The translations under genes and the position numbers were made by a program. Shown here one piece after another: positions 22,153 to 25,508 of a stretch of DNA of 64,000 nucleotides. The DNA comes from Prochlorococcus marinus subsp. marinus str. CCMP1375 (GTDB taxonomy: Bacteria; Cyanobacteriota; Cyanobacteriia; PCC-6307; Cyanobiaceae). The DNA lies in contig NC_005042.1 in the NCBI RefSeq assembly GCF_000007925.1, forward strand, positions 1,488,001-1,552,000, in the 5' to 3' direction. The notes under the pieces were generated by a model that saw nothing but the letters and a program-made list of their open reading frames with translations, had not been told where the DNA came from and did not search any database. Every line of letters starts with the position of its first letter. Position 1 is the first letter of the stretch.

Positions 22153-22389
22153 TCAATCATTTTTGGAGCGATCAATAAGCACTAAAGAAGCAAACAATAC
22201 AAAGGCTGTAATCTGAATAATTAAATCGTTTTTCAAGACATTTTCACCAGCGAAAGATCTTATGCCCATAATCAAAAGGCCAATGCCAGCAGAAGCTGAT
22301 AAGGCAAGCCATAAAACACGTCTTATCCCCCTAAAAGGGTTTCGAGACTCTTGTAAAAGTTTTTCACGAATGTTGGGATCTAAATTCAA
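22153..22389 (-). CDS. Conserved membrane protein, DUF3493-like
   Basis: Seventy-eight residues with a polar N terminus (NPFRGIRR, basic) and two hydrophobic helices at about 24-44 and 54-71. The arrangement resembles the DUF3493 family of cyanobacteria and plastids, to my recollection; function is unknown to me. It is convergent with infB (86 bp between stops) and divergent from tRNA-Thr, whose 5' end lies 18 bp from its start codon. Confidence 0.75.
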   Translation of the reverse strand: MNLDPNIREKLLQESRNPFRGIRRVLWLALSASAGIGLLIMGIRSFAGENVLKNDLIIQITAFVLFASLVLIDRSKND

Positions 22390-22407: not shown

Positions 22408-22479
22408 GCCGGTGTAGCTCAGGGGTAGAGCAACTGATTCGTAACCAGTAGGCCAGCGGTTCAATTCCGCTCACCGGCA
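22408..22479 (+). tRNA. tRNA-Thr (anticodon CGU)
   Basis: A 72-nt cloverleaf: acceptor GCCGGTG/CACCGGC, D stem GCTC/GAGC, anticodon stem 22433-22437 with 22445-22449, loop TTCGTAA holding CGT at 22440-22442, variable loop of 5, and T stem AGCGG/CCGCT around TTCAATT. Discriminator base A; CCA is not encoded. Reads ACG codons. The anticodon stem has an A-C mismatch next to the loop (positions 31-39). An apparently non-core stretch of 1.4 kb follows. Confidence 0.96.
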
Positions 22480-22555: not shown

Positions 22556-22583
22556 AAGGAGAGGCCTAAATAGGCCTCTCCTT
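22556..22583 (-). terminator. Strong hairpin, likely minus-strand terminator
   Basis: Perfect inverted repeat, AAGGAGAGGCC (22556-22566) with GGCCTCTCCTT (22573-22583) around a 6-nt centre TAAATA. Read on the minus strand the stem is followed by a T-rich run (TTTGTTGTATTT partly overlapping the stem end), whereas on the plus strand it is followed by AATCCAACCG. So it fits better as the 3' end of a minus-strand transcript than as the tRNA-Thr terminator, though it may act both ways. Confidence 0.6.
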
Positions 22584-22880
22584 AATCCAACCGAAAGTAT
22601 TAAAAATTAATTAATAAAGATTAGATAGAAAGATAACGAAGATTCTGGCTAATGGCACCTGGGGCCATATTTCTACTTGTAAGGCTTAACCTCCTTTAAG
22701 GGCACCTAAACGATGCATAGGAGTACCGACTAAATTGACGCACCTTAATCATTGATCCTTGTCAATTCAGACGAAAGCCCAATTTAAATTGAGACTGTTG
22801 GAGCAGGCACCAGAAGTCAGCGTGCTTCTAGTAAATGCTCAGGTGGAGTATCTACCGTCATAAGGCACCTCCGAGTTCGA
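22556..22880 (-). ncRNA. Candidate structured non-coding RNA (unknown family)
   Basis: No ORF of credible length exists here, yet the sequence is rich in paired segments. On the minus strand, from 5' to 3': CTC-GG-AGGTG pairs with CACCT-GAG (22838-22875 region); GAGCA..AGAAG pairs with CTTCT..TGCTC (22801-22840); ATTGAC with GTCAAT (about 22734-22766); CTTAA with TTAAG (22685-22700); ATGGC with GCCAT (22652-22668); then the terminator hairpin. A weak promoter-like TTGAAA (22906-22911) lies 17 bp from TACTTG. It lacks the motifs of RNase P RNA, SRP RNA and tmRNA that I know. Extent and strand are inference. Confidence 0.35.
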
Positions 22881-23277
22881 TACAAGTATCATTACTGGAT
22901 ATTTATTTCAACGCAATCAGTCTTAATGCCCATTGCGATTTGCTGGTAATTGGATGAAAATGAAAGATTGGCCTAAAAGGAAAAGGTCTGAACGAGTCTC
23001 GTAGATCAAACGTTTTTATACATGACAACTGAAAGCATTAAAAAAAGATAATTACTATTAATCCAGGAGAAAGATGCTATTTCAACTTAGCTACTAGCCA
23101 TATCGGCATATAAGAAATCATCCATTAATAAAGAAGCTCATTGTCTGAAATTTTTTATTGAACAGAGAAAGAAGCATACTACTCTTAAATTATGACAAGT
23201 GAAGTCTAAATACCTCAAATAAATTAATCTTATTACGATAATTATTTTTTTAAATATAGATAATAGGTTCTAGTTAT
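22881..23277. other. Gene-free stretch downstream of candidate ncRNA
   Basis: AT-rich DNA without a supported gene. It holds a small hairpin (CGCAAT at 22912-22917 with ATTGCG at 22932-22937) and two very short plus-strand frames: a 16-codon one at 22954-23004 rich in Lys/Arg, and a 7-codon one preceded by AGGAGAAAG near 23070. Neither is convincing. I see no repeat, transposase remnant or copy of the tRNA-Thr 3' end. Confidence 0.3.
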
Positions 23278-23310
23278 GATATTTAAGCATGTATTATATG
23301 CTTAAATATC
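23278..23310. repeat. Perfect 13-bp inverted repeat (AT-rich hairpin)
   Basis: GATATTTAAGCAT at 23278-23290 is repeated inverted at 23298-23310 around GTATTAT. On the plus strand TTTT follows the second arm, and it overlaps the stop codon of the 119-codon minus-strand frame. It may be a weak terminator or a binding site. Low GC makes it a weak terminator stem. Confidence 0.5.
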
Positions 23311-23661
23311 TTTTGCTAACTTAATAATTAATTCCACCAATTCGTCTCCAAAACAATTAGAGTTTATTCTAGCCTTATTATTGGCATGAATAGATTTATC
23401 TGAGTTTAGTGTTTGAGGCTCTCTACTGTCACAACAATTACAAACTATATGCACTTTCCTGCCGTCCTTTTGTTCTTTAACTCTAGCAAATACCCAAGAC
23501 TTAGCTTGTATGTTTGTCCAATTTTCAAATGGACCTTGGCAATCTATTTGCTTTTGACAAGTATCCTTATCACGAAAGATACCTGAATGCTGCAAGTGTT
23601 TATATCTGAAACCTTGCTGTCTAGCCTGCTTGATTCCTATGTGTGTAATTTGGGAGTGCAA
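23302..23661 (-). CDS. Doubtful hypothetical protein without ATG start
   Basis: Open frame of 119 codons from a TTG at 23659-23661. There is not one ATG in the frame, a TAA lies eleven codons upstream, and no Shine-Dalgarno is seen, so the start is weak. The predicted product is polar, with a basic middle, five cysteines including CNCC, and an amphipathic C-terminal helix (ELVELIIKLAKDI). I recognise no family. It lies alone between the tRNA-Thr region and a conserved radical-SAM gene. It may be a lineage-specific small gene or the remnant of one whose 5' end has been lost. Confidence 0.35.
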   Translation of the reverse strand: MHSQITHIGIKQARQQGFRYKHLQHSGIFRDKDTCQKQIDCQGPFENWTNIQAKSWVFARVKEQKDGRKVHIVCNCCDSREPQTLNSDKSIHANNKARINSNCFGDELVELIIKLAKDI

Positions 23662-23882: not shown

Positions 23883-25508
23883 ATGAGTAACCCTCAATCC
23901 AAGAAATTAAATGCCCTAAGGCAACCATCTTCGACTTTAGAGAATGCAAAAGTCTTGATTATAAGGTTGCCTTGCAACCCAATATTTCCAATAGGACCAA
24001 TCTATTTAGCTGATCACCTCCATAAATGCTTTCCAACACTACCTATAAAAATTCTTGATCTTGCAGCCTTACCAAGTATTGATGTTGAAAGAGTTTTAAT
24101 ATCTAATATCAATAGTTTTCAGCCTACTCTTCTAGTTTTTTCTTGGAGAGATATACAAATTTATGCACCTGTTGATGGGCGAGGGGGCAATCCTCTTCAA
24201 CATTCTTTTGAAGCATTTTATGCACAAAATCCACTAAAAAAAATAAGAGGTGCAATTGGCGGCTTGCGTTTGATGAAAAGTCATTATGGAGAACTCTGGC
24301 GCAATCAACGTTTAATAAAAAAAGGAGTTGAGCAAGCCAAAATTTATTTCAAAAATGCAATGGCTTTAGTTGGTGGTGGAGCTGTAAGTGTTTTTTATGA
24401 GCAACTTGGTAAATCTCTCCCCAAAGGAACCATTATTTCTATTGGAGAAGGAGAGCCTTTGTTAGAGAAATTGCTTTTGGGCAAGAGTATTAACGAAGAA
24501 AGATGTTTTATTGTTGGTAAAACTCCTAGATCAGGATTAATACATGAGCAACCAAAAAGTGCTATTAAAACTGCCTGTGATTATTCATACATTGCCTCTA
24601 TTTGGCCTCAATTGAACTGGTATCTTGATGGAGGCGACTTTTATATAGGTGTTCAAACTAAGAGAGGTTGTCCACATAATTGTTGCTATTGTGTTTATAC
24701 AGTAGTCGAGGGTAAACAAGTCAGAGTAAACCCTGTCGAAGAAGTTATTAGTGAAATTCGTCAATTATATAAATTAGGTGTTAGAAATATATGGTTCACT
24801 GACGCTCAATTCATACCAGCTAAGCGTTATATAGAAGATGCCAAAGAACTCCTCAAAGCTATTAAAAAAGAGAAGATGGATGGGATACGTTGGGCTGCAT
24901 ATATCCGAGCAGACAACTTAGACGCCGAGCTCGCAAAACTAATGGTTGAAACAGGTATGAGTTACTTTGAGATTGGGATTACATCTGGATCTCAAGAGTT
25001 GGTTAGAAAAATGCGAATGGGATACAACTTAAGGACTGTAATTGAGAACTGTATTTTACTTGCTAATGCTGGTTTTAAAGATCATGTCTCTGTCAATTAC
25101 TCATTCAATGTCATTGATGAAAGGCCTGAAACCATTCGTCAAACAATTGCCTACCATAGAGAACTAGAAAGGATTTTTGGAGTGAAGAAAGTTGAGCCAG
25201 CCATCTTCTTTATAGGGCTACAACCTCATACTCATCTTGAACAATATGGCTTTGACAAAGGTCTTCTCAAACCAGGCTACAACCCTATGAGCATGATGCC
25301 ATGGACAGCTCGAAAGCTTTTGTGGAATCCAGAACCAATGGGCAAAACATTCGGGAGAATATGTTTAGAAGCATTTGACTCTTGTCCAAATGACTTTGGG
25401 CGTACAGTTATGAACTTATTGGAAAGAGATTATGGAGTTGCACCTTTAGCAGAAGCATTGCGCGCTCCATTAGAAGGACGTTCAGCTATAGCAAAAGCAG
25501 TTCGATAA
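23883..25508 (+). CDS. B12-binding-type radical SAM protein (possible photosystem II high-light acclimation protein)
   Basis: 541 residues. The N-terminal 200 residues resemble a cobalamin-binding Rossmann-like domain (GPIYLADHLHKCFP, LVGGGAVSVF, IGEGEP). The radical-SAM motif is C263-x3-C267-x2-C270 (RGCPHNCCYC). Later parts (WFTDAQFIP, EIGITSGSQELVRKMRMG, VNYSFNVIDE) fit the TIM-barrel of the family. Conserved cyanobacterial proteins of this type are annotated as photosystem II high-light acclimation radical SAM proteins; I place it there tentatively. Substrate and reaction are unknown. Its last 79 bp overlap the 3' end of the CPBP protease gene on the other strand. Confidence 0.85.
   Translation: MSNPQSKKLNALRQPSSTLENAKVLIIRLPCNPIFPIGPIYLADHLHKCFPTLPIKILDLAALPSIDVERVLISNINSFQPTLLVFSWRDIQIYAPVDGRGGNPLQHSFEAFYAQNPLKKIRGAIGGLRLMKSHYGELWRNQRLIKKGVEQAKIYFKNAMALVGGGAVSVFYEQLGKSLPKGTIISIGEGEPLLEKLLLGKSINEERCFIVGKTPRSGLIHEQPKSAIKTACDYSYIASIWPQLNWYLDGGDFYIGVQTKRGCPHNCCYCVYTVVEGKQVRVNPVEEVISEIRQLYKLGVRNIWFTDAQFIPAKRYIEDAKELLKAIKKEKMDGIRWAAYIRADNLDAELAKLMVETGMSYFEIGITSGSQELVRKMRMGYNLRTVIENCILLANAGFKDHVSVNYSFNVIDERPETIRQTIAYHRELERIFGVKKVEPAIFFIGLQPHTHLEQYGFDKGLLKPGYNPMSMMPWTARKLLWNPEPMGKTFGRICLEAFDSCPNDFGRTVMNLLERDYGVAPLAEALRAPLEGRSAIAKAVR

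Follow-up and report, generated by a model that had tools for sequence, protein, structure and literature searches.

An interval beside a tRNA-Thr gene, in a 64,000-nt stretch of DNA (the window), was read in an initial annotation as a minus-strand gene for a structured RNA of unknown family, without a credible open reading frame. The window belongs to a genome of 1,751,080 bp, which we take to be that of Prochlorococcus marinus SS120. The locus raises two questions: which RNA is encoded here, and is that RNA really non-coding?

Anatomy and fold of the minus-strand gene

The features that we assign to the locus (Table 1) describe a minus-strand gene spanning about 330 nt, with a predicted transcript of 327-334 nt. 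The terminator hairpin proposed for this strand is there, with 12 pairs (22583-22556) enclosing a 4-nt loop and followed by TGTTGTATTT. Terminator-like sites in the region number three, compared to 0.6 in shuffled sequence, and relatives carry terminator-like hairpins of other sequence at the equivalent position. At the opposite end, the TTGAAA-17-TACTTG promoter is literally present at 22911-22883, and a consensus promoter scan did not report it. Transcription would begin near 22884-22877, judging from the published distance between palindrome and start (PMC5069720) and from where strong conservation begins on the upstream side. The palindrome lies approximately 30 nt ahead of this conserved 5' edge and is the sole zero-mismatch match to GCAATNNGN8CNGATTGC in the SS120 genome. 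Although allowing two mismatches yields 31 sites compared to 13 in a control, only this one is perfect, and we rejected the idea that the palindrome marks a larger regulon.

Adjacency to tRNA-Thr (22408-22479) also holds, but the tRNA lies on the opposite strand, converges on the element and has no evident part in it. A radical-SAM gene (23883-25508) occupies the far side. Between the element and a minus-strand ORF at 23302-23661, for which Pfam gave no match, the plus strand contains an AT-rich hairpin of 15 bp with TTTT after it (23278-23310). In the other direction, a 78-aa minus-strand ORF (22153-22389) between infB and tRNA-Thr matches DUF3493 (Low PSII accumulation1/Rep27).

Table 1. Features of the element, in window coordinates and in the order of the minus strand
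Feature	Position	Strand	Basis or remark
Gene with palindrome and terminator	22936-22550	-	Single copy in SS120
Imperfect palindrome GCAATGGGCATTAAGACTGATTGC, candidate transcription-factor site	22936-22913	-	Upstream conservation in many copies, GCAAT...GATTGC
Promoter region and inferred transcription start	22911-22877	-	Sequence; start from palindrome distance in PMC5069720 and edge of conservation
TTGAAA	22911-22906	-	17 nt before TACTTG
TAATGAT, alternative candidate -10	22894-22888	-	Sequence
TACTTG, candidate -10	22888-22883	-	Sequence
Shine-Dalgarno GGAGG, 6 nt ahead of ATG	22872-22868	-	GGAGG or a close form here in nearly all distinct copies
Micro-ORF, 14 codons, MTVDTPPEHLLEAR and stop	22861-22817	-	Translation; conserved frame and selection
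P1 5' arm, GAAGC	22828-22824	-	Helix 1; 96.3% of cells paired, no both-sided change
Nearly invariant motif CCTGCTCCAACAG	22807-22795	-	CTGCTCCAA in 167 of 173 copies
P2, GGC 22779-22777 with GCC 22685-22683, around the central domain	22779-22683	-	Helix 2; both-sided changes in 2 of 3 pairs
P3, central hairpin	22774-22726	-	Helices 3 and 4; both-sided changes in 8 of 11 pairs
P4/P5 hairpin, CTCCT/AGGAG outer, GCATC/GGTGC inner	22723-22691	-	Helices 5 and 6; nearly invariant GCATCG and AGGTGCCC
P6 hairpin ATGGCCCCAGGTGCCAT with nearly invariant GCCCCAG	22668-22652	-	Helix 7, weaker, 86.1% paired
P1 3' arm, CTTC (GCTTC in most relatives)	22641-22638	-	Helix 1
Intrinsic terminator, 12-bp stem 22583-22556 and T-rich tail	22583-22550	-	Terminator scan

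Folding energy alone leaves the strand undecided: within the limits 22884-22550 none of 100 shuffles folds as well as the minus strand (z -3.2), but wider limits give z -2.2 for the minus strand and -2.1 for the plus strand. Approximately 180 nt of structured RNA lie between the micro-ORF and the terminator. Using RNAalifold and a helix scan, we derived a seven-helix structure. On an alignment of 27 copies (A1), 94.7% of its cells are paired, compared to 31-42% when the structure is slid along the alignment. Both-sided changes affect 13 pairs and 37 cells, a level that none of 500 shuffles reaches, and these counts lean towards the structure because it was partly chosen on the same alignment. 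Most of the covariation resides in the central hairpin P3. P1 is a long-range helix whose 5' arm, GAAGC, overlaps the end of the micro-ORF.

The compensatory changes fall outside the hairpin that the initial annotation had singled out. Several local inverted repeats do exist in the interval, including the two-part stem at 22801-22840 with its GAGCA/TGCTC and AGAAG/CTTCT arms, but this stem shows no both-sided change among the 27 relatives and does not beat shuffles, and we do not retain it. Some sequence motifs are nearly invariant: among 173 distinct copies, CTGCTCCAA occurs in 167, AGGTGCCC in 166 and GCCCCAG in 165. CCTGCTCCAACAG, which contains the first of these, is probably an exposed pyrimidine-rich element. 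Taken together, covariation and very wide conservation support a structured RNA. Separately, copies of the CC9605 type (L063, L072, L075, L078 and others) have a conserved AAACGAGCGAGYTAGGCCG just before the terminator, a region with a possible frame reading MHKRAS and stop that has no Shine-Dalgarno sequence.

Distribution and identity of the element

A search with all 4227 Rfam families at the gathering cut-off matched only the two tRNAs, in agreement with the earlier view that no known family accounts for the interval. The best sub-threshold match over the element, L20_leader, scored 25.9 bits against a cut-off of 58.7, and relaxed thresholds produced chance-level matches only. We also rejected tmRNA, which neither ARAGORN nor Rfam detected, and a phage origin, for which 50,697 phage records held no match. 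In IMG/VR, exact CCCTGCTCCAACAGTCT was not found, and only one of 11 loose-pattern matches is a real copy. It lies on a contig classed as viral (L152:4293-4506; IMG/VR 3300035003_000005) and could represent flanking host DNA or a piece of Cyanobium that was misclassified.

The element is confined to one family and is very common within it. A DNA search found it in 48 of 99 relatives, often in multiple copies. Of 400 genomes from this family, 349 were positive with a covariance model built on the 27 copies of A1. In a phylum-wide sample of 386 genomes, the 57 positives all belong to this family, with none among the 329 others. Some genomes contain seven to nine copies and SS120 a single one; in one genome, three copies stand in tandem with a 450-nt period (G124:C1:2267989-2269127; L140). 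Named records with copies include Synechococcus WH7803 (CT971583.1) and RCC307 (CT978603.1), and others come from Cyanobium, Vulcanococcus, Aphanothece and Prochlorococcus MIT 0701.

This pattern recalls a published RNA. A 2,510,659-bp genome (G256), which by its size we take to be that of Synechococcus CC9605, contains seven strong copies (E 4e-53 to 7e-34; one is at G256:C1:946998-947233) and one remnant. Measured to the terminator, the copies there extend about 338-374 nt. In that strain, Yfr103 was described as seven paralogous ncRNAs of 290-328 nt that together made up 55.2% of the CC9605 mdRNA-Seq reads from the Red Sea (PMC5069720). Homologs were listed in WH7803, RCC307, SS120, NATL1A/2A, MIT9303 and MIT9313 among others, and an imperfect palindrome was placed at about -29 to -58 relative to the transcription start (PMC5069720). 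The function was called enigmatic, and the RNA was treated as non-coding with a strongly conserved structure (PMC5069720).

Because the seven copies, the strain distribution and the palindrome agree with that description, we are highly confident that the element is Yfr103, an assignment that draws on copy number, distribution, length class and palindrome rather than on the published sequence. It is very improbable that we are dealing with a different RNA, undescribed so far. The comparison by description and the mismatch in length between the published paralogs and the copies in the presumed CC9605 genome would fit such an RNA, but it would also have to share the seven copies in that genome, the palindrome and a strain distribution that matches as far as checked. 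Thus, the structured minus-strand RNA gene of the initial annotation survives, with its terminator and at about 320-330 nt, while its description as a new family gives way to Yfr103.

A conserved short frame at the 5' end

The view that the interval has no credible ORF does not survive comparison. A 14-codon frame led by a Shine-Dalgarno sequence opens at the start of the predicted transcript (22861-22817), and Shine-Dalgarno sequence, start and short frame are kept in 172 of the 173 distinct copies. Since the model used to collect these copies covers the ORF region, ORF-less ones may be under-sampled, although copies with no recognizable ORF were met (L232, L113). The frame is exactly 13 or 14 aa long in 132 of the 172, whereas a stop at this position is expected in approximately 1% of shuffles. 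DTPP is present in 141 frames. Most frames start with ATG, and at least a dozen with TTG or GTG. About eleven translations carry a leading methionine that comes from a match to an upstream GGA/TTG; in these copies the following ATG is probably the real start.

The pattern of substitution points to a coding constraint. Within the D-T-P-P-x block, codon pairs that differ by a single base give a synonymous to nonsynonymous ratio of 4.62 in frame, compared to 0.12 and 0.03 out of frame. None of 300 column permutations reaches 4.62, with the caveat that the pairs are not independent, as paralogs and close strains are among the copies. On a tree computed from the non-ORF part of the element, parsimony assigns 16, 13 and 66 changes to the first, second and third positions of the DTPP codons, a distribution as extreme in only 1 of 495 column choices. 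The stop codon changes five times on this tree, always between TGA and TAA. By these measures the 13-14 codon frame is under purifying selection, and from its conservation we infer that it is translated.

Conservation is uneven along the frame. The first seven codons (MxDTPPE) are far better conserved than the rest and are spared by truncations. Approximately 40 of the 172 frames stop early, after 7-11 aa, or continue past codon 14 to reach 21-49 codons, and two copies are frameshifted, which shows that copies can lose the C-terminal half. The two frameshifted copies (L066 and L069, in the genome taken as CC9605) are identical and share a one-base loss in the core of the micro-ORF, which was perhaps spread by gene conversion. 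Two other mini-ORFs in the SS120 RNA, MHRLGALKGG and MAPGAISQNLRYLSI, were rejected because the alignment shows no conservation around their ATG codons.

The micro-ORF also occurs apart from the RNA. In seven species of the CC9605 genus (Synechococcus), a distinct short locus (L285, L288, L289, L291, L295, L297, L303) has a Shine-Dalgarno sequence followed by MRDD[SG]PTEQ[DG]LEAA and a stop. These seven loci have a different conserved upstream sequence, GAGTTGAAATACGGATGA, and their own terminator, and contain none of the three invariant motifs of the RNA body. Since the ORF persists at a separate locus that has no body, the peptide probably serves as a functional product or as a nascent-chain signal.

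Could the codon-like pattern instead reflect a constraint on RNA or DNA, in a purely non-coding regulator that works solely through base pairing or through proteins that bind it? Yfr103 was, after all, published as an ncRNA with conserved structure (PMC5069720), and a sizeable minority of frames is truncated or extended. Moreover, GGAGG could pair with the CCNCC of the proline codons and free the third base of the first. Such pairing leaves much to explain: the third-base pattern extends to the aspartate, threonine and second proline codons, the stop varies only between TGA and TAA, and the frame stays open in copies that have lost CCNCC (the D-G/S-P-T copies and those of high-light strains). 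A non-coding reading must therefore account for third-base variation at four consecutive codons, for conservation of both Shine-Dalgarno sequence and stop, and for loci that retain these and the frame with no body. We regard it as unlikely.

High-light Prochlorococcus presents a further departure. Here a diverged homolog (for example, L086:1425-1820 and L091:1345-1720) keeps the palindrome, a Shine-Dalgarno sequence, the frame MIDSLP[EA]ISE with its stop, CTGCTCCAA, AGGTGCCC and CCCCAG; one genome that carries it, of 1,657,990 bp, is MED4 by its size, and the homolog lies near 979.9-980.2 kb in MED4. The central hairpin loop ACAAGGATCAATGATTTAGG lies 3' of CCCCAG instead of 5' of AGGTGCCC, a rearrangement of domains. 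With palindrome promoter and ORF retained and the body much changed, these strains, like the ORF-only loci, would suit a plain messenger for a small peptide whose long structured 3' UTR serves for stability. This, too, seems improbable to us, as family-wide invariant motifs and covarying helices exceed what a stabilizing 3' end needs.

Given that relatives of the element show both a conserved fold and a conserved frame of 13-14 aa, Yfr103 is probably messenger and structured RNA at once. We consider it likely, on comparative evidence, that SS120 carries its only copy of Yfr103 at 22936-22550 on the minus strand and that Yfr103 is a dual-function RNA.

A possible mechanism and its relation to known systems

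How might the two parts work together? From the anatomy and conservation described here, and from published expression of the relatives, a promoter under the conserved palindrome would produce a transcript of about 330 nt with its 3' end at the intrinsic terminator. A ribosome would load at the 5' Shine-Dalgarno sequence and read the short frame, M-x-D-T-P-P-[E/Q/N/G/R] and onward to the stop, as purifying selection suggests. The body, P1-P6, would expose the C-rich stretches CUGCUCCAA, AGGUGCCC and GCCCCAG, whose near invariance is observed and whose single-strandedness is predicted; base pairing with target mRNAs, at sites that resemble a Shine-Dalgarno sequence or are otherwise G-rich, would be their most likely role. 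Because the 5' arm of P1 lies within the last codons of the ORF, passage of the ribosome should compete with the closed fold and may couple translation to the regulatory form. In its full form, the proposal is that Yfr103, which ranks with the most abundant transcripts of oceanic picocyanobacteria, engages ribosomes, and that translation of MxDTPP both makes a conserved micropeptide and switches the multi-loop fold of the body, linking translational state to control of target mRNAs throughout the marine picocyanobacteria. We advance this version tentatively and think it doubtful as a whole.

The main rival within the coding view holds that the act of translating the first seven codons matters, and not the free peptide, since the C-terminal half is lost in approximately 40 copies. 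A start-proximal nascent chain or Pro-Pro motif would slow the ribosome, which could then cover GAAGC, hold the RNA open, protect it from decay, or be parked on a very abundant decoy mRNA. The N-terminal seven codons, much better conserved and spared by truncations, and the overlap of the ORF with P1 agree with this reading, and Pro-Pro motifs do slow translation. But Pro-Pro is absent from 15 of the 172 frames, including the high-light MIDSLPEISE and the D-G/S-P-T copies, and the ORF-only loci retain the C-terminal LEAA. We consider this reading less probable than a dual-function RNA, and those 15 frames led us not to adopt a universal Pro-Pro stall as the central idea.

If the frame is translated, an abundant RNA of the ocean has been filed in the wrong class. 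The high-light homolog, with its moved domain, extends the question to the dominant Prochlorococcus ecotypes.

Compared with Yfr103 as published, the element is likewise multi-copy in marine Synechococcus, has a homolog in SS120, and shows a conserved structure and an upstream imperfect palindrome. Its length is of the same class, about 300 nt, although the copies in the genome taken as CC9605 run above the published range. It differs in its conserved ORF of 13-14 aa where the published RNA is non-coding, in a diverged and permuted high-light Prochlorococcus homolog outside the published strain list, and in copies from Cyanobium and freshwater relatives. Among other cyanobacterial sRNA genes, Yfr6 has a conserved small frame of 33 aa (PMC2518516). 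However, in SS120 yfr6 and yfr7 lie elsewhere in the genome, at 923780-924640 (PMC1242208), and ORF and structure are different.

Leader-peptide attenuators share with Yfr103 a mini-ORF near the 5' end, led by a Shine-Dalgarno sequence, whose translation could alter downstream folding. Unlike them, Yfr103 looks free-standing rather than the leader of a gene, because in the window it has a terminator of its own, past which lies a convergent tRNA. A further likeness is to the dual-function sRNAs SgrS/SgrT, RNAIII/hld, SR1/SR1P and VcdRP, in which one transcript combines a small ORF with a regulatory RNA part. Here, we find a conserved ORF under selection with a Shine-Dalgarno sequence, joined to a conserved structured RNA. 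If translated, it would rank with the shortest conserved ORFs carried by structured RNAs of bacteria. Yfr103 departs from those four in belonging to another lineage, in being multi-copy, and in the size and placement of its ORF, which at 13-14 codons is far smaller than theirs, lies at the very 5' end and runs into one arm of a long-range helix.
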